From Streptomyces sp. NBC_00510 (GTDB lineage Bacteria; Actinomycetota; Actinomycetes; Streptomycetales; Streptomycetaceae), in the NCBI GenBank assembly GCA_036013505.1, contig CP107851.1, forward strand, positions 372,001 to 436,000: DNA of 64,000 nucleotides. The letters are read 5' to 3'. The position numbers and the translations under genes are program-made. Each line of letters starts with the position of its first letter. Positions within the stretch are counted from its first letter, which is position 1. Below the pieces are notes generated by a model, which saw nothing but the letters and a program-made list of their open reading frames with translations, had not been told where the DNA came from and ran no database searches. Shown piece by piece: positions 48,796-61,735 of the stretch.

Positions 48796-50263
48796 TCACC
48801 GCTGTACGGCCGGGGGTTTTCCGTCGGGGTGGTCGTTGATCCAGGCCAGGCCGCCGAGGTCGAGGCGTTGGCGGGCGCGGGTGACAGCAACGTAGGCTAG
48901 GCGGACGTCGGTGTCGTCGATCGGGCCGTTCAGCGGGTTGCCGTGCTCGTCGGTCTCGTCGCTGTCTTTGGGTGGGTGAAAGTCGTCGGCGATCTCGACC
49001 TGGGGCCATTCGCGGCCCTTGGCTTTGTGAGCGGTGGAGACGGTCACCTGCGCGTCCTGTTCGCGGTCGAGGCGGTTGACCGCGGCCAGGACGGCGTCGG
49101 TGCCGTGGTGGTCGACGAGGTCGACCAGGGGCTGCAGGTCACTGCCGGCGGGATCGTGTTCGGCGTACTCCGGCAGCTGGCCCCAGGTGGTGAACAGCAC
49201 CAGTTCGGGGTGGGAGGTACGGCGCCCGTCTTTCAGGTCACGTGACGCCAGCGCCACAGCGCGCAGGGCCTGGCCTCCCCCAGCCAGCGCGACCCTACGG
49301 CCATTGGCGGACTTGGGCCATGGCGCCGATGTTGCTCCGGCACAGCACCGCGTCCGGCTGGGTCACCTTTCCGACCTCGGTGGGGATCGTCTGGGTTCCA
49401 TCCAGGCGGATCGGGGCGTCGGCGATCGTCAGCCACCGGTTGGCCTCCAGCGCGAGGATGGGGCCGAAACGGAAAGACTGCGTCAAAGAGAGGGAGGTGC
49501 CGTCGAAGCAGGTCATGACGTCCTTGGCGCCGCGCCAGCCGTAGATGGCCTGCGCGGAATCCCCCACCATGACCAGTTGGGCGTGGCCGCGCTGGTTGAG
49601 CAGCACCTGCTCCAGGACGGGGTTGGTGTCCTGGGCATCGTCCAGGAGCACGAAATCGGTGTGGAGTTTCGGGTCGGACAGGGCCCAGATTTTCAGGTAG
49701 TGGTCGTCTTCGAAGCGGACCGCTCCGGTGTCGGGGTGCTGCAGGTCGGCCCAGGCGGCGCGGGCGTAGGGCAGGATGCGCCGGGCGAGTTCGGCGTGCA
49801 GGTCGACGCTGTCCAGGCCGCGGAGCGGTGGCACGTGATGGTGTCCGATGACGGGGTCGGCGGAGTGACAGAACCGGGTGACGGTGCGCTGGGCGGTGGA
49901 GGTCAATGTGGCCGGCCAGACGGTTCGGTTGCCGATGCGCATGGGCTTGGTGATGCCCAGCGCATCGGCGGTGTGCCTCCCGGGTAGCCGGGGGCCGTTC
50001 AAGCGGGCGCGGTAGCAGTGACCGATGGCAGCGTAGGCCAGAGAGTGCGCGGTCTTGCACAGCACCGTGGCCGGAAAGCGGCCGGCGGCGTCCTGAGCGA
50101 TGGACCGGTTGAACGCCACATACAAGCCCCGGCGTGAGGTGCTGGCCGCGAGCTGGGTGAGCGTGGTGGTCTTAGCCGTGCCAGCACCGGCCTGGATCAC
50201 CAGGTGGTCCCCGATGGCGAAGGCATCGGCGGCCGCGATCTGTTCGTCAGTGGGCTGCAGCAT
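48796..50263 (-). pseudogene. UvrD/Rep-like helicase with a single frameshift
   Basis: The N-terminal frame (ATG 50263) carries LVIQAGAGTAKTTTLTQLAA (Walker A, with AKT where GKT is usual), LHTDFVLLDDAQDTNPVLEQ (DDAQ box for DEAQ) and LVMVGDSAQAIYGWRGAKDV. A one-base shift near 49297 is needed to continue as RRVALAGGGQALRAVALASR, DAQVTVSTAHKAKGREWPQV and VRLAYVAVTRARQRLDL (motifs V-VI). Combined length is about 485 residues, a compact UvrD-like protein. The lesion may be real or a sequencing error. Confidence 0.75.
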
Positions 50264-50708
50264 CGTTGAGCTTCATCGATCCGTGAGGGCGCGACAAGCG
50301 CGCGTCGGTGGTCAGGTGTCGTCGTCGGTGAGGAGGCCGCGCATCGGCACAGACGGCAAACCCTCGGAGAGCGCAGCCGATGTTTCCCTTGCCTCGCAGC
50401 AAGTCCTCTGCGTTCGCCACCGCTGTCCGGAATACCGAATCGGCGCGGGCTTCCACGACTCCGACGACGTTCTCGATGGTGTCGACCCAGTTCCTGGTGA
50501 AGACCCCCTGCTCTCGCAGGGTCGCTTGCACCTGGTGGGGAAGGTCGCTCAGCGCATCAAGCCGGACGGAGTCCGCCTGAAGCGCGTCGAACGCGATGGT
50601 GGCCGGCGGCAGCTTCCCGCACACCGGGCAGAACCGGTGTGCCGAAGACGGCGTACCGCAGTTCGCATCCGTCGTGGCACCATCCCCGTTGTGGATGACC
50701 GTACGCAT
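50247..50708 (-). CDS. Cys-containing protein of unknown function, probably C-terminally truncated
   Basis: The product contains SSAHRFCPVCGKLPPATIAF then EQGVFTRNWVDTIENVVGVV and EARADSVFRTAVANAEDLLR, ending the conserved part at GKGNI. Longer Streptomyces relatives continue well past 'LL.GKGN', but here an unrelated tail follows to a stop at 50247. A single CPVC pair suggests half a zinc site. Its end overlaps the helicase start by 17 bases. The start (ATG 50708) is uncertain. Confidence 0.5.
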   Translation of the reverse strand: MRTVIHNGDGATTDANCGTPSSAHRFCPVCGKLPPATIAFDALQADSVRLDALSDLPHQVQATLREQGVFTRNWVDTIENVVGVVEARADSVFRTAVANAEDLLRGKGNIGCALRGFAVCADARPPHRRRHLTTDARLSRPHGSMKLNDAAAH

Positions 50709-51593
50709 GAAGTGGATTGGTCCGGCCTTTTCCATGCCTCGGGCCCCGCCGGCGACACGCCGCGGCATCTGGCTGCTCTCCTCGGCGACGATGCGGAGGC
50801 TTTCGTCGACGGGTACTCGCACCTGTGGTCGGCGACGCTTCGTCGCGAAGGCAAGGCCTGGCCTGCGACGGCGCCCACCGGGCTGCTTGTCGCCGAGCTC
50901 CTGGACGATCCGCTGCTGGGGCCGGATGATCCCTCGTTGCCCGATGCCATGCTCGCCTATCTGTACGAGGTCGGCGTCGCCGCCGACCTCGGAGACCGAG
51001 CTGCGGAAATCCGTGCTCGGGTCAAGGACCGCGCACCGGAGCTTCGGGCCTGGACCGCCGAGTACATGTCGACCGATGCGGATGGCAGGGCCCGGATGTG
51101 GCGGGACGGCACGGGTCTGGGTGAACTCGTCCTAGATCAGGCGGCGCTCGCCTGCTTCGACCTGGTTCCCGCGCTCCTGCGGCGAACACTGCCGCACCTC
51201 GCGTCGGAACGCGCCAGGCGCAGGACATGCGCCGCCGCAGCTGTCGGGTCACTGGCGCGGCATCCCGCAGCCTCCGCACAACGTCCGGAGCTGCTGGAAC
51301 AGTTGACGTCGATGGCCCGGGCCGCCGATTCCTCGCACGACCTGGCGACGATTGTGATCGCCATTGGCCACCTCGACGGCGACACGCGCCCCTGGCTGGC
51401 TGACCCGCATGCCGGCGTTCGGGCCTGCGCGGCCCTGGCGCCCAACCTTGCCGGTGACGACGCAGCGGACCAGGTGCTGATGGAACTGGAGCGGTCGCCG
51501 CAAGCCTTCGGCAAGTCCTTTGGCGACCTGGCTCCACCCCTGCAGTTCCAGTCCAAGTCGTACCAGGACCTGCTCACAGGGCGAGCGAGCTGA
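50691..51593 (+). CDS. HEAT-repeat-type helical protein
   Basis: From GTG 50691 the 300-residue product reads VDWSGLFHASGPAGDTPRHL, GYSHLWSATLRREGKAWPAT, ALACFDLVPALLRRTLPHLA then RRRTCAAAAVGSLARHPAAS, ATIVIAIGHLDGDTRPWLAD and VRACAALAPNLAGDDAADQV. This is an all-helical HEAT/ARM-like array common in Streptomyces. Relatives are usually longer at the C-terminus, so this one may be shortened. Role unknown; it overlaps the divergent Cys-containing gene at its 5' end. Confidence 0.7.
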   Translation: MDDRTHEVDWSGLFHASGPAGDTPRHLAALLGDDAEAFVDGYSHLWSATLRREGKAWPATAPTGLLVAELLDDPLLGPDDPSLPDAMLAYLYEVGVAADLGDRAAEIRARVKDRAPELRAWTAEYMSTDADGRARMWRDGTGLGELVLDQAALACFDLVPALLRRTLPHLASERARRRTCAAAAVGSLARHPAASAQRPELLEQLTSMARAADSSHDLATIVIAIGHLDGDTRPWLADPHAGVRACAALAPNLAGDDAADQVLMELERSPQAFGKSFGDLAPPLQFQSKSYQDLLTGRAS

Positions 51594-51615
51594 TTCCCGC
51601 TGTCCGGGACGGGGG

Positions 51616-52020
51616 TTACGGTCGCGGCAGGGTGAACAGCCCCTGCTCGGTCTCGGCCAGGATTCCCCGCTCGACGAGCCGCTTGAGCTTCAGGCGGGCG
51701 TTGTTGATGCTGCTGGGCGCGATCTCCACGTCCATCGCCTCTCACACCGCCCGCGCCCGCAGTGGGGCATTGGCCGTGGCGAAGACCGCCATGATCTGCT
51801 AGTAGGCCGGATGGTCCGGCAGTTTCGCGGCCGGCGCCTCGGACGGGGGTGGGGCAGGCGCAGCGGCGGTGGCTGCGGGTGGTGCGAGCTGCTGTGGGGG
51901 GCCGGGCTGGATGCTTCAGAACATGCTCCACCTCTCCCCCGCAGAACCCGACGAGTAGCCGCTGGCACGCCGTACACAGGCCGACAAGTGGGCGGTCAAC
52001 CTTCGCCCGGCAGTTCCACG
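51616..52020 (-). pseudogene. HTH-type regulatory protein remnant with two nonsense codons
   Basis: The C-terminal frame reads KLPDHPAY-stop-QIMAVFATANAPLRARAV-stop-EAMDVEIAPSSINNARLKLK then RLVERGILAETEQGLFTL. It is one continuous winged-helix-like domain interrupted in frame by TAG (51799-51801) and TGA (51742-51744). A second frame upstream contributes LVGLCTACQRLLVGFCGGEV-EHVL, probably the original Cys-bearing N-terminus. The gene is clearly dead; its intact relatives are small DNA-binding proteins. Confidence 0.6.
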
Positions 52021-52240
52021 CCCGGGAGGGGAGTCTCCAGGTGCCCAGGAAGCCCGTCGGAGTCGTGGACAGTGTCGAGCACAAGCTCGGCATGTTCGTG
52101 GACAACATCCGCCGCCGCGCGCTCACCCCGGAACGGCGCGCGGAACTCGACGCTCTCGGTATGCGCTGGTAGCAGCTCACCGTGGTGGGAGTGGTCAATC
52201 ATTCCGAGCGGCCGTGGGCGCAGCGGCGGGCGGCCTTGCG

Positions 52241-52990
52241 TCACGCCGTGCCGTCCGCGTCGTCGTCGGACTCGTCCCATGCGTCCCAGTCCTCTTCGGG
52301 AAGCCGCGCGTTCACCCACCCCGCGTTGAGCACCAGCCGGGAGGTCCGGTGCACCGTCAGAAAGCCGATGGGCCCGGTGAATTCGATGTCCACGCACTTG
52401 GTCGTGGACGGGGGTATGCCCGCCGCCAGACCGCTGAGTGCCGTCACCGAGGCGGAACGGTAGCCCAGCGCGCTGAAGGCGGCCGTCACCGTCTGCCCCG
52501 CGGCGCCCACCGCCAGCGGCTCGCCGCTGATGCCGGGGAAGTGTCCCCGGGAGTCGTCCGTCGCAGTGGTGAGCCCGAACAGCCCCGCATGGTCGAGCAG
52601 ATCGTGGTCTGCCGTCACCTCGAACGGCACGGTGGTCACCGACAGGTACGGCCGGCGGTCCCAACTGTGCACGCGGGACACCGTGACCCCCGGCCCAGGC
52701 TTCCCGTACGGAAGCCGGTCCCCGGGGACGGCCGGGTACGCACGCTGCAGCGCGCCCACGCCCGCCGCCAGCACCTCGCGGCCCGGTACGCCCGCCTCGC
52801 CGCGCAGCAGGTGGACGTCGATGCCACCGGTGCCCAGCACCTTCAGCACCGTCACCCGGCCGCACGGCGCCTCCAGCACCTCGGCGCGGTCCAGCAGCGC
52901 GGTGGTCCGGTACAGCACGCCGAAGTGCTCGTCGAACGGCCGGAGCCAGTCCGTCCTGACGGCCAGCGCACCTGCCAGACCGCCCCGCCT
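52241..52990 (-). pseudogene. Serpin-like protein, N-terminal part missing
   Basis: ALAVRTDWLRPFDEHFGVLY then VTVLKVLGTGGIDVHLLRGE, LLDHAGLFGLTTATDDSRGH, and the C-terminal GPIGFLTVHRTSRLVLNAGW match the Streptomyces serine-protease-inhibitor (serpin) family, including the closing strand near the reactive loop. About 150-170 N-terminal residues are absent, and upstream DNA encodes nothing related. An acidic tail (EEDWDAWDESDDDADGTA) ends the frame. Translation from GTG 52918 is possible but a functional serpin is unlikely. Confidence 0.55.
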
Positions 52991-53834
52991 ATCGCGATGG
53001 AGACGAACGAGCGCAGGAAGCCGGTACTGAAGAAGCGCTCATGGACGACCCGGTGCTGAAGCCTCCGCAATCGGAAGAAGACTGACCCGTGGTCCGAAGT
53101 CGCTGCCCGCGTCCAGGACGTTGTCCCTGCGGCCCTGCGGTGCGCGGCCTGACAATCGGAACACGCTCCCGAGGCTGGCTGATCGACGACTGACTGCGGA
53201 ACCGGTCAACGATCGCTGTTCCCTGAGGTGCGCGAGACCACGGGATCGGCTACGAATAGTGGGCTGCGTTCCGCGACTGCAACGAGCGCCCCACTCCTGT
53301 CCCACCCGATCTGCCCGTCGGGAAGTGATCCCAGCCGCGTGGCGGGTGGGTTCAGTAGCCGGTAGCGCCGGGGCGTCGAACAGTTCGGCAGCGTAGGCGG
53401 CCGATTGACTTCCCGCGCGCCCGAGCCCCGTGAGCACTGGGCAGCGGGGCTTCACCGTCGAAGGAGCACGGCCGAAGGAGCACTGCCAGTGGCGCATCAC
53501 GGCAGCCGAGTACGCCACTGAGGTCCGCAAGTACCGCGATGCGATCGGGCAACTGGTGTGGGCCGGCCTGCAGGACTTTATGCGTGAGCCGTGGGTGGTC
53601 CTCGGCTAGAACCTGCACTTGCCGCCCGGGCGAACCAAAAGACCCGGAGCAGGAGCTCGATGAGGCCGTCCGATCCCACCAGGAGCAGACCGTCGCGAAC
53701 TGCCAGGAGCTCGGCGGATCGCCCGGGACCTGCCGATCATGCAGATACTGCAGGGCTGGACGGTCGCCCCTGGCCGCCGAACCCGTCGTCGGCGTCGGAT
53801 CCGAGCGCACCAGCCCCGCCGCGCAGCAGCACCG
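52991..53834. other. Stretch with only scraps of coding sequence
   Basis: About 840 bp. On the plus strand 53484-53609 reads CQWRITAAEYATEVRKYRDA then IGQLVWAGLQDFMREPWVVL and stops, a protein-like fragment with no start and no family I recognise. Nothing else is supported. Confidence 0.3.
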
Positions 53835-55232
53835 TCATTCGCGGGCAAGGCTCGCTTTGAGCACGTACGAGCGGGAGGCCTGGACTTGGCTGCGCAGGGT
53901 GGGCAGATCGACGTCGAGGACGTGGCCGTTCCACTTGAGGGGCTCGCCGTTTACGAGGACGGCGCTGATGTTGCGGGCGTCGGAACCGAGGACGACGGTG
54001 CCGATCGGGTCGTTGAGCGGCATGTTGTTGAGGTCTTCAGCCTGGATGACCAGTACGTCGGCCTTCTTGCCCGCGGTGAGGGAACCAGTGAGGGTCGCCA
54101 GTCCGTTCGTGCGGGCGCCTTGGAGGGTGGCGAAGTCCAGGACGTCGTGAGTGGTGATGCGGGAGGCCGGCTGGCCAGTGCTGTAGGCGGCATTGCTGGC
54201 GCGCATCCGCTGGATGGCGTGGAGGGCTCGCATCTGGGTGAACATGTCGCTCGCCAAGGCGACTTCGACGTCGATACTCAGGCCGGGACGGATGCCCACG
54301 CCCAGACCTTCGTCAATGGCGGGAATCGCGCTCTCCAGGCCGATTTGTGCATCGGAGGTGGGGGCGAGCGCCACGGTGGTACCGGCTGTTGCCATGGTCT
54401 TCCATGCCTCGGAGGTCAGTCCGGTCGCATGGATGAGAGTGACGTCGGGGCCGAGGATGCCGTCTTTGGCCCAGCGCAGGACGGCCTGTGAGGAGGAGGC
54501 GCCGAAGACGGCATCCACGCTCACGCCGATGTCCAGGTGCTGGGCCACGCGGGCAAGCTCGGACCCGTAGGCGAGCGCAGGGCCGGCGATTTCGTCAGTG
54601 GCCAAGGCTGCCAGGCGCAGAGTCAGGAGCTGGTCGTTGCTGCTGAAGTACTGCTCCTTGATACGGGTCAGGTCGCCGGGCCACTGCTGGTCCCAGTCAC
54701 CGAAGTGCGGCGCCATGGAGGCGTGGACACCGCGGATGCGTGTGTCGCGGAGGGCCTCGATGGCGGCGTCGGAGTGTGCGGGGGTCCGGGAGTTGTGGGA
54801 GAAGTCGAGCATCGTGGTGATGCCGCTGTCGATCGCGGTCAAAGCGGCCAGCTTGGTGCCGATGTACATGTCCTCGGGCCGGTAGGCCGTCGCGTGGCCG
54901 GCCAGGGTGGTCATGAGGTAGCTACCGAGGTCGTTGACGTCCGGCATGATCCGACGCAGCTGCGTCTGCCAGGCGTGCCGGTGGGTGTCGACGAAGCCGG
55001 GGGTGAGGATTGCGCCGGTGGCGTCGACGACCAAGGCGTTGCCGGCATTGAGACGGGGACCGACAGCGGTGATGGTGTCGCCCTCGATGAGGAGGTCTCC
55101 GCGGTCGATGACGCCGAGGTCGGCGTCCATGGTGATGATGGTTGCGCCGCTGAACAGGATGCGACGTTCGCGGGCGGGACGCTGTCGGAGCTGTTCGAGC
55201 ACGGCGGTGCTCGTGGTGCCGTTGACGTTCAT
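53835..55232 (-). CDS. Amidohydrolase (cytosine deaminase/Atz-like superfamily)
   Basis: The 465-residue product has the composite beta domain (RILFSGATIITMDADLGVID) and the metal motif ILTPGFVDTHRHAWQTQLRR. A barrel His (VTLIHATGLTSEAWKTMATA) and Asp-like positions (ALASDMFTQMRALHAIQRMR) follow, then the closing segment LTGSLTAGKKADVLVIQAED. It should be a metal-dependent hydrolase or deaminase acting on C-N bonds. Start has GAGAAGGA upstream. It is the last gene of the Atu4866/MFS operon-like cluster, 137 bp after the fusion gene. Confidence 0.9.
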   Translation of the reverse strand: MNVNGTTSTAVLEQLRQRPARERRILFSGATIITMDADLGVIDRGDLLIEGDTITAVGPRLNAGNALVVDATGAILTPGFVDTHRHAWQTQLRRIMPDVNDLGSYLMTTLAGHATAYRPEDMYIGTKLAALTAIDSGITTMLDFSHNSRTPAHSDAAIEALRDTRIRGVHASMAPHFGDWDQQWPGDLTRIKEQYFSSNDQLLTLRLAALATDEIAGPALAYGSELARVAQHLDIGVSVDAVFGASSSQAVLRWAKDGILGPDVTLIHATGLTSEAWKTMATAGTTVALAPTSDAQIGLESAIPAIDEGLGVGIRPGLSIDVEVALASDMFTQMRALHAIQRMRASNAAYSTGQPASRITTHDVLDFATLQGARTNGLATLTGSLTAGKKADVLVIQAEDLNNMPLNDPIGTVVLGSDARNISAVLVNGEPLKWNGHVLDVDLPTLRSQVQASRSYVLKASLARE

Positions 55233-55369
55233 GAGGTCCTTCTCTCGGTTGGATCGGGGGTGGCGGACTGCCGGAGTTATGTGGTGTTCGGTTCGGTGCC
55301 GGTCCGGTCCATGCGGTCCATGCGCTGGCTGGCCGGGGAGTGCCCGTGTGACGCGGGAGGCTTTGGCTG

Positions 55370-56089
55370 TCAGCGTCGGGTGAAGCGGTATCCCGCGTGG
55401 TGCAAGACGCCGTCTTCGAATTCTCCGAAGGCCCAGAAGCCCAGGTCATCGAGGTAGTCGATGCGGTTGTCGCGGATCCAGTAGCGGCCCTGGTAGGCGC
55501 TTTGACGGTCGCCGCGGGCTTCGTCGTAGCGTCCGTCAGGGAGCAGTTCCTGGCGTACGAAGTCGTTCTCGTCGACCCACATCCCCAGGTAGGGATGGGC
55601 AGAGTCGTGGGTGGGCGCTGCGGCGGGGGCGGGCGTTTCGGTTCCGTCCAAGGGACGGCCGTCCAAGAGGTGGACCTGGCCGGCGGTGATGAGGATGTCC
55701 AGGTGTTCACCGCGTGCCGGGACGGCGCCCGGAGGAGTCTGCGGGGTGTCCGCGAGCCGGAGAACGGCGATGTCCGCGGGGTGGCCGGGGCTGAGGGAGG
55801 CGCCTTGTGCGCTGCCGGTGAAGTCGGCAGCGGCGGGCAGGACGAGACTTCCGGTGCAGTCGATGACGATCATGTTGTCGTCACCTGCGGCGGTGAGCAG
55901 GCCCGGGCCGACGCCGACGATCAGGGAGCCGCCGATCAGGACGTCGGCGTCCTGCCAGTCGCCCATCATCGCGTTGCCGGTGATGACGGTGCCGCCGGTA
56001 AGCAGCAGGGGACGGCCTTCGGGCTGGCGGAGTTCGGTCAGCAGGGAGTCGTCTCGGGTCGGGCTAGCGGGGGTGAGCTCGCTGGTCAT
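55370..56089 (-). CDS. Barrel-less amidohydrolase composite domain fused to Atu4866 domain
   Basis: In the 239-residue product, residues about 27-150 follow the outer beta domain of amidohydrolases: LLLTGGTVITGNAMMGDWQD, VLIGGSLIVGVGPGLLTAAG, VIDCTGSLVLPAAADFTGSA, then directly LSPGHPADIAVLRLADTPQT and ILITAGQVHLLDG. The TIM barrel between these parts, including the catalytic His-x-His, is absent. Residues about 165-239 form an Atu4866 domain (HPYLGMWVDENDFVRQELLP, YQGRYWIRDNRIDYLDDLGF). It cannot be a normal amidohydrolase; it may bind a ligand. Confidence 0.75.
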   Translation of the reverse strand: MTSELTPASPTRDDSLLTELRQPEGRPLLLTGGTVITGNAMMGDWQDADVLIGGSLIVGVGPGLLTAAGDDNMIVIDCTGSLVLPAAADFTGSAQGASLSPGHPADIAVLRLADTPQTPPGAVPARGEHLDILITAGQVHLLDGRPLDGTETPAPAAAPTHDSAHPYLGMWVDENDFVRQELLPDGRYDEARGDRQSAYQGRYWIRDNRIDYLDDLGFWAFGEFEDGVLHHAGYRFTRR

Positions 56090-56257
56090 GTGATTGTCCT
56101 TTTCGACAGGGGGTGTGGAGCGTGGTGAGTGCCGATGTGCAGGTCGCGTGCGCATGCGCCGTGTGTAGCTGGCTGTACTGCGGCGGGGCTGGCACGTCAG
56201 CCACCAGGGGTGCGCGGCGCGGTAGCAGGAGGGGTCTGCCAGGGAGGCAGGAGGGGG

Positions 56258-57496
56258 TTACCGACGGCGGGCGGAGGCTACGGCCAGGACTGTGCCCGCG
56301 CCGAGCAGGCCGGCGATGCAGAAGGTGATGCCGGAGAAGCCCATGTCGGTGAACGCGCCGACGAGTTGACCGCCGATACTGCCGCCCGCGAACATCGCGA
56401 AGGCGTAGAGCGCGGTGGCGCTGCCGCCGTTCGGGCCGGCCTCGCCGCTGATGACCTGCACCAGGGCGGGAGCGGCCAGGGCGACCGCCGCGACGAACAC
56501 CAGCAGGCCCAGCGCCAAGGCGATCGGAGAGCCGGCCATCAAGGCCACGGCCACGGCAGCAAGAGCGGCTGCGCCCAGTCCGATGATGACGCGGACGAGG
56601 GGGGCAAGGCGTGCCAGGACCGGCGCCAGGAGCGGGATCACCACCATGGCGGGCAGGGAGGACGCCCGCAGGGCGAGCAGACTCGCGGGGTCGTCAGCCA
56701 CGCTGGAGGGGCCGACCAGGGAGACGGCAGTGTAGATCGCGACGAAGCCGCCCAGCAGCGTGGACGTCGCCAGGTACAGGGTCGCAAGCCGCGGTCGGGA
56801 TACCAGCTTCGGCATGACCCCGAAGGCCGTCATGATGCTGGTGCGGTGCTCTGTGACGGTCGGCAGCAGTACGAAGCGGGCAGCCACTGCCAGCAGTGCG
56901 AACAGAGGGACGGACAGCAGGAACACGTCCTGCCAGGAGGCGGCTTCTGCGATGACCTGGGCCGCTACCTGCATGATGACCGCCGCGGCCAGCAGACTGC
57001 TGGAGACGAAGCTGAGCGTCATGGCCCGCCGATCGGGACGGATCCGCGTGGCCACGTACGCGTAAGCGCCAGGGGCAAACATCGCCGCCGTCAGGCCCTG
57101 CAGCACCCGCAGCACCACGGCGGTGGTCAGATCATGAGCGATGGGCACCAGCGCCGTGGTCAGCGCTGTGGCGGCCAGACAGCCCGTGATCATCGCACGG
57201 GAACCGAACCGGTCGGACAGCGGTCCGGCAACAAGGAACCCGACGGCGTAGGCGAACCCAAAGGCCGTAGAGGTCCAGGTCACCGCGGTCGGCGCGACGT
57301 GGAAGGTGAGCGCCATCGGCCCGTACAGCGCCACCACGGTGTACATCTGCCCGACCACGAGCACACCGGCGAGTACCAGCAGCACGGTGGTCCGCAGCGT
57401 CGGGGCCCAGCGTCCCGGGACGTCCCGGCCGGCTGCGGTCATGCCGTTCGTGGTGGTCGGCATGCCGCACACGAGGTTGGAGGTCGTGTCCGTCAT
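56258..57496 (-). CDS. MFS transporter
   Basis: The 412-residue product has twelve predicted helices, with the MFS motif VGFLVAGPLSDRFGSRAMIT between helices 2 and 3 and VLRVLQGLTAAMFAPGAYAY in helix 4. It resembles drug/metabolite:H+ antiporters. Its ATG overlaps the stop of the upstream Atu4866 gene (ATGA), so the two are co-translated. It probably moves the compound handled by the neighbouring enzymes. Confidence 0.9.
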   Translation of the reverse strand: MTDTTSNLVCGMPTTTNGMTAAGRDVPGRWAPTLRTTVLLVLAGVLVVGQMYTVVALYGPMALTFHVAPTAVTWTSTAFGFAYAVGFLVAGPLSDRFGSRAMITGCLAATALTTALVPIAHDLTTAVVLRVLQGLTAAMFAPGAYAYVATRIRPDRRAMTLSFVSSSLLAAAVIMQVAAQVIAEAASWQDVFLLSVPLFALLAVAARFVLLPTVTEHRTSIMTAFGVMPKLVSRPRLATLYLATSTLLGGFVAIYTAVSLVGPSSVADDPASLLALRASSLPAMVVIPLLAPVLARLAPLVRVIIGLGAAALAAVAVALMAGSPIALALGLLVFVAAVALAAPALVQVISGEAGPNGGSATALYAFAMFAGGSIGGQLVGAFTDMGFSGITFCIAGLLGAGTVLAVASARRR

Positions 57497-57759
57497 GCCT
57501 GCCGCTCCTCTCGGTACAGCACGAGGTGCTCGTGGTAGAGCACGCCGTCGCGTATATCGCCAGTCGCGGTGAAACCGGTGTCGTCGACGTAATCGATGTG
57601 GGCGCCGGTGACCGTGTAGCGGCCCGTGTACGCGCTGCTCCGTGTGCCGCGGGCCTCGTCGTAGCGGCCGTTCGCCAGCAGTTCCTGGCGGATGTGGCCA
57701 TCTGCGGTCACCCACATCCCGACCACGTCGACCGTGTTGTCCTCAGTGGTGCCGACCAT
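57493..57759 (-). CDS. Atu4866-domain protein
   Basis: The 88-residue product is a single Atu4866 domain: VVGMWVTADGHIRQELLANG, RYDEARGTRSSAYTGRYTVT, HIDYVDDTGFTATGDIRDGV then LYHEHLVLYRE. The same fold forms the C-terminus of the protein at 55370. The family is a small beta-barrel of unknown biochemical role. ATG 57759 follows AGGAGA. First gene of the minus-strand cluster. Confidence 0.85.
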   Translation of the reverse strand: MVGTTEDNTVDVVGMWVTADGHIRQELLANGRYDEARGTRSSAYTGRYTVTGAHIDYVDDTGFTATGDIRDGVLYHEHLVLYREERQA

Positions 57760-57843
57760 GGCAATCTCCTGTCCCTGGGTGGGGTGGTTGGGTTCTGTCC
57801 ACCGAGTTTGCGCAGGTCACAGGGTCTCTTCCAGGACGTGTGC

Positions 57844-57868
57844 TGCCTGGGTGTGGCACACCCAGGCA
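57844..57868. promoter_or_regulatory. Perfect palindrome between the XRE regulator and its operon
   Basis: TGCCTGGGTGTG, one base, then CACACCCAGGCA: 12-bp perfect arms. A CCTGGG half-site recurs at 57890, right before the regulator's ATG. Very likely the operator of the divergent XRE gene. Confidence 0.8.
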
Positions 57869-57898
57869 ACAGGGAGAGCGCCGTTTTAGCCTGGGCTC

Positions 57899-58750
57899 AT
57901 GTCCACGAAGAGCCAGCTGGGAGAGTTTTTGCGGGCCCGCCGCGGCAGCCTGCAGCCCGATGACGTCGGCATGGCGAGCTACGGGACCCGCAGGGTCGCC
58001 GGGCTGCGCCGCGAAGAGGTCGCGGTCCTGACGGGGATCAACGTCGACTACTACACCCGTCTCGAGCAGGGCCGCGAGCGCCACCCCTCGCCCCAGGTCC
58101 TCGGAGCGCTCAGCCGGGCACTGCGCCTCGACGCAGACGCCCGCGACCACCTGTACCGGCTGGCCGGCGCCGCACCCGGCGACCAGGCCATGCCGACCCC
58201 GGACCGGATCAGCCCCGACCTGCGGCAGCTGATCGACGGCTACGCGCTCAGTGTCGCCTTCGTCATCAATCGGGCCCTCGACATCCTCGCGGTCAATTCT
58301 CTGGCCGAAGCGCTGTACTCACCCTTCGAGCGCGCCGACAACCTGGCCCGCATGGCCTTCCTCGACCCTGCCGCCCGGCAGTTCTACCCGCGGTGGAATT
58401 GGACGGCAGAGGCCACCGTGGCCAACCTGCGCCAGGCCATCGGCCACGAAGCCAACAATCCCCGCCTGCAAGAACTTATCCGCGTTCTCAACGAGCAGAG
58501 CCCGGAGTTCACGCGCCTGTGGAACGCCCACAACGTGCGCGGCAAGACCCGCGAGGACAAGTATTTCCTCCACCCGGACGTCGGCCCACTGACCCTGTCC
58601 TTCCAGGCCCTCGACGTCCGCGACGCCCCCGGCCAGCAACTCGTCGTCTACCAAGCACAGCCCGACACCCCCAGCGCCCAGGCCCTCCACCTGCTGGGCA
58701 ACCTCCAAGCCACGCGCCGCCAGTCCGAACCAAGCCCCTACCGCCACTGA
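57899..58750 (+). CDS. XRE-type regulator with MmyB-like ligand domain
   Basis: The 283-residue product begins with a helix-turn-helix (LGEFLRARRGSLQPDDVG, RVAGLRREEVAVLTGINVDY, YTRLEQGRERHPSPQVLGAL) and continues with the MmyB-like PAS-type domain (ISPDLRQLIDGYALSVAFVI, NLRQAIGHEANNPRLQELIR, WNAHNVRGKTREDKYFLHPD). Regulators of this type commonly flank and control a divergent oxidoreductase or transporter operon. No ribosome site is evident; leaderless translation is possible. Confidence 0.95.
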   Translation: MSTKSQLGEFLRARRGSLQPDDVGMASYGTRRVAGLRREEVAVLTGINVDYYTRLEQGRERHPSPQVLGALSRALRLDADARDHLYRLAGAAPGDQAMPTPDRISPDLRQLIDGYALSVAFVINRALDILAVNSLAEALYSPFERADNLARMAFLDPAARQFYPRWNWTAEATVANLRQAIGHEANNPRLQELIRVLNEQSPEFTRLWNAHNVRGKTREDKYFLHPDVGPLTLSFQALDVRDAPGQQLVVYQAQPDTPSAQALHLLGNLQATRRQSEPSPYRH

Positions 58751-59869: not shown

Positions 59870-61088
59870 TCAGCGGCGCAGTCGGCGCAGGGCTCGGCTC
59901 GCCCGGCTGCGCCAATGGGCTTTGTGGCGTTGCCAGGTGCGGGAGCGCCGGGTGGCGGCGAGACTGGCGAACAGTTCCTCGTAGGTGCGGGCGACGTGGA
60001 CGGGGTCGAAGCGTTCGGCGGCGTGGCGGGCGGCCTGGCCCATGCGGCGGCGGCCGGGTTCATCGGCGATCAGGTCGCAGAGGGCAGAGGCCAGGGCCTG
60101 CGGGTCGCGCATGAGGACCAGGCGGCCGTCGACGCCGTCGTCGATGATCTCGGCGGGGCCGAGCGGGCAGTCGGTGGCGACGACCGGTACGCCGCAGCGC
60201 ATCGCCTCGACCAGCGTCATCCCGAAGGACTCGGCGGTCGGAGGCGGAGGCGACGATCGACGCTTTGGCGAACTCGGCCTCGATCGGTGAGACCGCGCCC
60301 ATCAGCTGCGCTTGTTGCCTCAGGTCGTGTTGGTCGATGAGCTGCTGGAGCCGCTGCTGGTCGGTTCCAGTGCCGTAGATGCACAACGTCCAGTCGGGGT
60401 ATTTGGCGGCGACCTGCGTGAACGCTTCGATGAGCAGGTCCAACCGCTTACCGCGGACCAGCCGGCCGGCTGTGGCAATCACCTTGGGTGTCTCGCGCGT
60501 GGGCGGCAGGCTGGGGTCGGGGACGCTGTTGGGTATGGCGAGGATGTGCACGCCGGGCAGGCGCATCTTCGCCCGGTAGACGGCGGCGTCCGCTTCGGTG
60601 GTGGTGACCACCGCGTCCAGGTCGCGGTACCAGCGGGCAAGCTGGGCGCGGAGCTTCTTGCCGTGGCCGTCGTGGGTGAGGTGTTCCTGGGCGATACGCA
60701 GGGCTCGGGCCGGGCCGAGACGGGCCAGGTAGATGTTGACGCCAGGACGGGTTCCGATGATGACGTCCGCATCGCAGGTGCTCAGGTACTGCTCGACGCG
60801 CTGGTCGGTGAGGCGGTTGTACTGCTTGTACCGCTTCTCCGCGGTGGGGAAGACGCGGGCCGGCTCGTGCATCAGCGGATCGGCCGCGTCGGCGGAGTCC
60901 GGGCGGATGTCGACCAGGTGTACGACGGTCACGCGGGGGTCGGCGGCGAAGCGAGGGCGGGCACGGTGGCACAGCATCGAGACCACCGTCACCTCGTGCT
61001 GGTCGGCCAGGGCTGTGGCGAGGTTGAGCGTGGTGCGGATGGTACCGCCGATCCCGTAGACGTTGTGGATCAGGAAGGTGATCTTCAC
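59870..61088 (-). pseudogene. GT4 glycosyltransferase with one frameshift
   Basis: From GTG 61088 (overlapping the DedA stop, GTGA) the frame gives KITFLIHNVYGIGGTIRTTL and IPNSVPDPSLPPTRETPKVI, ATAGRLVRGKRLDLLIEAFT. Near 60235 it shifts by one base. The other frame then gives ESFGMTLVEAMRCGVPVVAT, the ExxxxxxxE donor-binding motif of GT4 enzymes, and ends at 59870. The intact protein would have about 405 residues. The single lesion in a conserved motif could be a sequencing error. Confidence 0.75.
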
Positions 61089-61735
61089 GCGGCGGGCCCC
61101 CGGCTCGTCTCCGTGCCGGTGCGGCGGCGCGAGCGGAGCAACTCCAGGGCCAGCGGCAGCAGGGAGACGGCGACGATGACGCCGACGATGGGGAGCAGGT
61201 AGCGGTCGACGTTGGGGATGCTCGCGCCGAGCGCGTAGCCGCCGAGGACGAGGCCGACCGTCCACGCCAGGCCGCCGGTGATCTGCCACAGCGCGAAGGT
61301 CCGGGCGGGTACGCGGACGATCCCGGCGAGCGGGTTGAGCACGGTCCGCACGACGGGGATGAAGCGGGCGAAGACGATCGCCTTGCCGTGGCCGTACCGG
61401 GCGAGCAGGTCCTCGGCTCGGGTCATGCCGTCGATCAGGTGCCGGTTGCGGGCCCGGGCCAGCAAGGTCCGTCCCGCGCGGCGGCCGATCAGGTAGCCGA
61501 CCTGCGCACCGAGCAATGCCCCGGCCGCGGCCGCCACCAGCACCCGGGGCAGGGACAGGTGCAGGCCGTGGGTTCCGGTGGTGCACAGCAGCCCAGCGGT
61601 GAACAGCAGGGAGTCGCCGGGCAGGAAGAACCCGATCAGCAGCCCGGTCTCGGCGAACAGCACCAGGAAGACGCCTACCGTGCCGAATGTCGTCAGCAGC
61701 GACGTGGCGTCCAGCGGGTTGAGGGCGAGGGGCAC
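61085..61735 (-). CDS. DedA/VTT-family membrane protein
   Basis: The 216-residue product shows DedA hallmarks: FLVLFAETGLLIGFFLPGDS (E and F-x-PGD loop), GALLGAQVGYLIGRRAGRTL and VFARFIPVVRTVLNPLAGIV (the R-F-x-P-x-x-R reentrant motif). DedA proteins are linked to lipid-carrier recycling and membrane homeostasis, fitting the UppP neighbour. GTG 61735 is chosen because homology begins there. Coupled to the GT4 gene by a 4-nt overlap. Confidence 0.9.
   Translation of the reverse strand: MPLALNPLDATSLLTTFGTVGVFLVLFAETGLLIGFFLPGDSLLFTAGLLCTTGTHGLHLSLPRVLVAAAAGALLGAQVGYLIGRRAGRTLLARARNRHLIDGMTRAEDLLARYGHGKAIVFARFIPVVRTVLNPLAGIVRVPARTFALWQITGGLAWTVGLVLGGYALGASIPNVDRYLLPIVGVIVAVSLLPLALELLRSRRRTGTETSRGPAA

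Follow-up and report, generated by a model that had tools for sequence, protein, structure and literature searches.

We examined a 64,000-nucleotide (nt) stretch of Streptomyces sp. NBC_00510 (contig CP107851.1, positions 372,001 to 436,000; hereafter the window, whose numbering is used below), in which a gene for an XRE/MmyB-type regulator faces four minus-strand genes encoding an amidohydrolase (AmH), a fusion protein (FUS), a major facilitator superfamily (MFS) transporter and a stand-alone Atu4866 protein. We consider it fairly probable that these genes form a ligand-switched cassette, in which the regulator and a palindrome control Atu4866, FUS, AmH and MFS, whose products handle a metabolite. 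Judging from comparative sequence evidence, it is very probable that the regulator uses the palindrome TGCCTGGGT-N7-ACCCAGGCA as its operator. The features of the cluster are as follows.

53835–55232, minus strand: AmH, an amidohydrolase of 465 amino acids (aa) in the NCBIfam subfamily PRK08204 (open reading frame (ORF), Pfam; NCBIfam 408.5 bits against a cut-off of 391)
55370–56089, minus strand: FUS, 239 aa, a barrel-less amidohydrolase shell with an Atu4866 domain (Pfam, NCBIfam, profile comparison, structure model)
55640–56050, minus strand: shell part of FUS, residues 14–150, N- and C-terminal beta-sandwich strands joined directly and HxH lost (hhalign; ratio of nonsynonymous to synonymous substitution rates, dN/dS)
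55376–55597, minus strand: Atu4866 domain of FUS (Pfam, E 1.6e-38)
56258–57496, minus strand: MFS transporter, drug-efflux-like, 412 aa (Pfam), in the position held in most relatives by a short-chain dehydrogenase/reductase (SDR) gene
57493–57759, minus strand: stand-alone Atu4866 protein, 88 aa, a small calycin-like beta-barrel (Pfam, structure model)
57831–57835, no strand: outer half-site CCAGG, invariant (100% in 20 non-redundant loci)
57844–57868, no strand: predicted MmyB operator (palindrome and phylogenetic footprint)
57887–57892, plus strand: TAGCCT, candidate −10 box for a leaderless mmyB transcript (putative promoter role); it is kept in relatives, and a fourth CCTGG half-site overlaps it
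57899–58750, plus strand: XRE/MmyB-type regulator, 283 aa, HTH_31 and MLTR_LBD (Pfam, tree)

An earlier reading of the DNA letters alone (the sequence-only reading) had described a perfect palindrome with 12-bp arms between the divergent genes, and it is exact at 57844–57868 (TGCCTGGGTGTG-G-CACACCCAGGCA); composition predicts about 2e-4 perfect palindromes of such size in an intergenic gap of ~140 nt. Among loci fetched for encoding PF11512 (Atu4866), and not chosen by palindrome, it precedes 32/32 MmyB genes with 57% or more identity to the window's and 0/24 of the more distant ones (Fisher test of palindrome against regulator identity, run with 33/33, 1e-16). The operator-bearing MmyBs form one clade in the tree (support 96/93). 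The sequence-only reading had made its case depend on a link between palindrome and regulator; as far as sequence reaches, palindrome and regulator clade coincide almost without exception. Across the 20 non-redundant loci, the palindrome arms are 97% conserved against 53–65% for the flanks, and the invariant half-site CCAGG stands 9–13 nt to their left. The strain's own 10.1-Mb genome holds one exact site and no further operator better than 3 mismatches, at which level the number of matches is near the background of a reversed-pattern control. In 395 genomes of the family, the site occurs at no more than one mismatch in 56, the reversed control matching 1; PF11512 is found in 64 and both together in 35 (Fisher 2e-18). 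Operator and co-regulation are thus well supported by comparison of sequences. No description of a defined 25-bp operator or of an Atu4866/AmH/FUS regulon was found in the literature searched, which is not exhaustive.

Could the palindrome act mainly as an RNA hairpin or attenuator instead of a protein operator? In several loci the arms are extended by perfect complements made of different bases (GTGTGT/ACACAC, GCTCTC/GAGAGC), as a hairpin would favor. However, the arm sequence itself is near-invariant, beyond what complementarity asks for, the outer half-sites of CCAGG/CCTGG type are conserved, copies stand before unrelated genes in both orientations, and the palindrome follows one regulator clade with no T-run terminator at the site, all of which makes the hairpin highly improbable. 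The bases immediately outside the palindrome differ between loci and are often still complementary across its centre (T/A, G/C or C/G at −1/+1), which could indicate half-sites that evolve together, or a hairpin. The 20-locus alignment contains a second conserved block on the left side of the operator, C.AG.CTG.GC.G at about −41 to −28, which probably serves as promoter for the Atu4866 direction. The conserved TAGCCT immediately ahead of the regulator's start codon resembles the −10 box of a putative leaderless mmyB transcript. Searches for sigma-70 consensus promoters and terminators gave nothing above chance.

The proteins themselves are well defined. All five ORFs are open and complete at the coordinates listed, with Pfam matches for AmH (Amidohydro_1, 7e-23), FUS (Atu4866, 2e-38), MFS (MFS_1, 1.5e-35) and the stand-alone Atu4866 protein (2e-39), bearing out the earlier view of an intact minus-strand set of hydrolase, Atu4866 and MFS genes facing an MmyB-type regulator. 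The single 4-nt overlap it had reported joins the Atu4866 and MFS genes (57493–57496). The Atu4866 domains of both proteins score 131 and 134 bits with PF11512, against a gathering cut-off of 25. The MFS protein covers positions 2–346 of the 347 in the MFS_1 profile and reaches no NCBIfam subfamily cut-off. The regulator has the MmyB/MltR architecture, with PF13560 (HTH_31, 9e-13) at the N-terminus and PF17765 (MLTR_LBD, 1.5e-49) at the C-terminus. Its start codon and that of the Atu4866 gene are divergent and 139 nt apart, and ribosome sites of AAGGA/GGAG-like sequence precede the AmH, FUS and Atu4866 starts.

Conservation of the gene set had been named as a check in the sequence-only reading, and the gene families do co-occur in many Streptomycetaceae; all five stand together in two loci (L091 and L100), in a gene order different from the window's. 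In actinobacterial relatives, a degenerate palindrome (at most 3 mismatches in 14 to CCTGGGT-N7-ACCCAGG, a level reached by ~7% of 330-nt windows drawn at random from these loci) lies upstream of separately transcribed genes for Atu4866 (25/29), AmH (13/24) and FUS (12/22). In other phyla it precedes Atu4866 in 0/5 loci, and most of the Atu4866 genes seen there are accompanied by AraC or LysR regulators. Because the same palindrome family precedes each gene even when separately transcribed, Atu4866, FUS and AmH would form one regulon, a step that we regard as supported. AmH orthologues are scarce, being present in 7/120 relatives. Six of these show Streptomycetaceae kinship, and PF11512 is present in five of the six; the remaining relative belongs to a different family in the same order and carries AmH and Atu4866 divergently, with palindromes between them and an MmyB gene adjoining. 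AmH or MmyB copies are broken, matching in two pieces, in single relatives (L123 3892–5272; L066 4386–5707; L148 1560–2370), which fits the cassette having been lost from some strains.

The genes next to the operator are more variable than the switch. The operator-bearing MmyB clade of the tree records six or more gains or losses of Atu4866. In loci lacking it, the site still adjoins an MmyB orthologue, which usually faces an SDR; in loci with it, Atu4866 is as a rule placed between the operator and an SDR, in many cases separated by a few nt. The window's regulator groups with those of two loci that have an SDR and no Atu4866 (L159 and L166). The SDR slot of the window is filled by an MFS gene, which is rare in related loci. 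Further afield, Atu4866 is followed by an SDR beside an AraC gene in Paenibacillus and Priestia, and in Sinorhizobium it comes after an SDR near LysR genes. The link between Atu4866 and SDR is therefore independent of MmyB, because the pairing recurs under AraC/LysR in Bacillota and rhizobia. Atu4866 was also found on 160 plasmid records, from Sinorhizobium, Agrobacterium, Klebsiella, Leclercia, Paenibacillus, Hymenobacter and Rhodococcus, mostly at 60–89% identity. We propose that it is an exchangeable module between a fixed regulator/operator and variable enzymes. Truncated or diverged Atu4866 genes adjoin an intact operator and MmyB gene in L160, L156 and L163, with an SDR too in L156 and L160; in these loci Atu4866 seems to be degenerating where it stands, next to a switch that is retained. 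For a mobile protein of 80 aa with unassigned function, Atu4866 is strongly conserved. The only literature found to name it is a legume-symbiosis study of rhizobial fitness, which lists an Atu4866 gene on pSymA of Sinorhizobium meliloti among its candidates for altered strain fitness with a nad1 mutant of Medicago as host (PMC12904279).

Such turnover would also be expected of an ordinary MmyB–SDR unit into which single mobile genes (Atu4866, MFS, AmH and FUS) had been inserted on a chromosome arm, sharing a promoter and no common pathway. The repeated gains and losses of Atu4866, its spread on plasmids across phyla, the rarity of MFS and a gene order that varies strongly among loci all fit this account. 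Yet the same families reassemble in other orders in L091 and L100, the palindrome is present at the promoters of AmH, FUS and Atu4866 alike where these genes lie apart, and Atu4866 pairs with SDR under AraC or LysR regulators in other phyla; we thus hold the insertion of unrelated mobile genes to be unlikely, though not negligible, and prefer the ligand-switched cassette.

The sequence-only reading had counted two Atu4866 proteins. This holds for the stand-alone protein of 88 aa, whereas the protein of 239 aa is an amidohydrolase shell fused to Atu4866. NCBIfam first showed an amidohydrolase N-terminus in the protein at 55370–56089. Since a two-sequence alignment of FUS and AmH is unreliable, profile comparison was used instead: FUS 14–92 aligns to AmH 9–85 (hhalign E 1.3e-14, 37% identity) and FUS 86–150 to AmH 363–442 (E 2.6e-8), so that FUS is without some 280 residues (~AmH 86–362) that comprise the TIM barrel and the HxH metal site. 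We do not file FUS as an enzyme, as its sequence appears to keep the composite beta-sandwich and to lack the TIM barrel with HxH. Its structure model is of moderate confidence (predicted local distance difference test, pLDDT, 64), with the C-terminus matching 2jmb and the N-terminus triazine hydrolases (Foldseek 1.3e-4).

FUS might be a decaying amidohydrolase remnant, fused by chance, of which only the Atu4866 part matters: barrel and HxH motif are gone, and evolution is faster in the shell than in the Atu4866 domain. Its architecture nevertheless occurs in 21 further loci and in two clades ~43% identical, shell dN/dS against close relatives is mostly 0.24–0.34 (outliers 0.7–0.8), and the shell has invariant residues (G61-P62, T66-A67-A68, D70-D71, P101-G102 and D106). 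Because the architecture recurs in two clades with purifying selection on the shell, FUS is, on this comparative evidence, a maintained protein and not a fragment, and the remnant explanation is very doubtful. In the second FUS clade (L090, L091, L094, L100, L123 and others), the FUS and Atu4866 genes point away from each other, diverged palindromes lie close to the two promoters, and several of the loci have another MmyB paralogue (~53%) nearby; this may be a parallel system that uses a variant operator. Scanning genome contigs for FUS homologues gave one named relative, Streptomyces carminius, and other relatives include Streptomyces plasmids.

Over its full length, AmH scores above the cut-off for PRK08204-type amidohydrolases, relatives of TrzN, AtzA and 8-oxoguanine deaminase, and shares their HxH, beta-6 His and beta-8 Asp: in the AmH clade H84 and H86, H268 and D321 are invariant in 22/22 members. 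It differs from them at the beta-5 metal ligand, which is Asp (D240) in 22/22 clade members and His in 16/16 paralogues examined. Here beta-5 was assigned by paralogue alignment, since the phmmer alignment to 7ww2 misplaces it. The substitution may alter metal binding. FUS departs from the same family in another way, consisting of the outer sandwich only, without the barrel.

The model of the Atu4866 protein (pLDDT 88) is an 8-strand antiparallel barrel that matches 2jmb (Z 11.8), lipocalin-like proteins (Z ~10) and avidins (Z ~8). Identity to Atu4866 itself (PDB 2jmb, PF11512) is 58–68% over the aligned part, with a matching fold; what differs is that the domain is found here under MmyB control, once as a protein of its own and once joined to an enzyme shell. 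Compared with the calycin barrels of avidins and lipocalins, which have the same strand number and arrangement, Atu4866 is smaller (~76 aa) and has a highly conserved polar GRYDEARG..R core, its ligand role being putative. Invariant residues include G31-R32-Y33, E35, R37-G38, R40, D59 and H76. A small ligand-binding barrel is a reasonable reading of this model.

Taken together, these features suggest the following scheme. A probably dimeric MmyB-type regulator would bind the 25-bp palindrome and control itself and the divergent genes, a step strongly supported by the sequence comparisons. Autorepression is suggested by the position of the operator at the regulator's promoter, where its right arm and TAGCCT overlap the expected place of the regulator's own −35/−10. 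By analogy with MltR and MmyB, the PAS-like ligand domain would sense an amphiphilic metabolite. The Atu4866 barrel would bind that metabolite or its product, the SDR of relatives would reduce or oxidise the compound, AmH with its D240-modified metal site would hydrolyse or deaminate a related compound, and MFS, in the SDR slot, would export it in the window strain. We infer that the ligand is an amphiphilic or carbonyl metabolite that is bound, modified and exported. More speculatively, the FUS shell may dock on AmH as a non-catalytic partner, bringing the Atu4866 barrel with it. That FUS is a new kind of module, its barrel deleted so that the sandwich alone docks and ties a ligand-binding barrel to a His-to-Asp amidohydrolase, all switched by MmyB through one palindrome, is a tentative idea that we doubt more than we believe. 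The small-molecule sensing and processing system imagined in the sequence-only reading fits the MmyB-type sensor, the calycin-like barrel, the SDR/amidohydrolase chemistry and the exporter, with ligand and reaction still conjectural; the barrel-deleted member, the altered AmH metal site and the SDR as usual cargo in relatives had escaped it.

Several observations weigh against this scheme. FUS is separated from its neighbours by gaps of 137 and 168 nt, and the window has only one operator, with none upstream of FUS or AmH within 4 mismatches; a single transcript is an assumption for both reasons. No SDR lies beside the window genes, though most orthologous loci have one. Most FUS genes checked are near an AmH gene and several are not, so an obligate FUS–AmH complex is not implied. 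Calycin-like folds are common, and the fold alone is no proof of function. The locus counts throughout ignore relatedness between loci. No structural template for the regulator was found by sequence among solved structures; a single weak match to malonyl-CoA decarboxylase (E 0.01) was judged to be chance and rejected.

A divergent unit under MmyB control is already known. In MmyB-family regulators a divergent SDR/MDR gene is an established pattern, the genes often adjoin antibiotic genes, and ligands, fatty-acid-like or furan, are known for two members only, MltR (crystallised with a fatty-acid-like ligand) and MmyB (PMC3406030). The window's regulator resembles MmyB/MltR XRE regulators in combining HTH_31 with MLTR_LBD, in being divergent to its putative target and in having an SDR target in orthologues; it differs in a target that begins with Atu4866 and has MFS where the SDR would stand. 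An adjoining SDR/MDR or antibiotic gene, a common association of MmyB and not a strict definition, is absent from the window. New here are the defined operator, the Atu4866/AmH regulon, the barrel-deleted amidohydrolase fusion and the His-to-Asp site, each as predicted above. The frequent proximity of MmyB-family genes to antibiotic genes and the likeness of MFS to drug exporters would suit a cassette for self-resistance to, or export of, the natural product of a neighbouring biosynthetic cluster. We judge this quite unlikely: no biosynthetic cluster travels with the cassette, families beyond MmyB, Atu4866, SDR, AmH and MFS occurring in at most 3 of ~74 loci, and there is no defence-family match. 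An anti-phage defence role was likewise considered and set aside, as none of the five proteins has a PADLOC match.

The surroundings had been called decayed, which is true in part. To the left, three long ORFs tested at 50100–53810 have no Pfam match, and this part may be decayed or non-coding; to the right, UppP/BacA and VTT/DedA-like genes are complete. A group-1 glycosyltransferase at 59870–61120 (minus strand) appears split between two frames near 60200, its N-terminal part ending near '...SIVASASDR' and its C-terminal part restarting at 'MTLVEAMRCG' in the other frame, which suggests a frameshift. A tRNA beside the cluster would have pointed to an island; the window has none.

Antibiotic-producing actinomycetes have many MmyB-family regulators, whose operators and ligands are poorly known; one clade now gains a precise predicted operator and a named regulon. 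Atu4866, an unassigned family found on plasmids and in several phyla, becomes linked to the chemistry of SDRs and amidohydrolases under the control of a ligand sensor. The conserved shell of an enzyme that has lost its catalytic core would be a rare case of domain reuse, beside an amidohydrolase clade with a changed metal ligand, and the FUS-type architecture hints at unstudied small-molecule handling.

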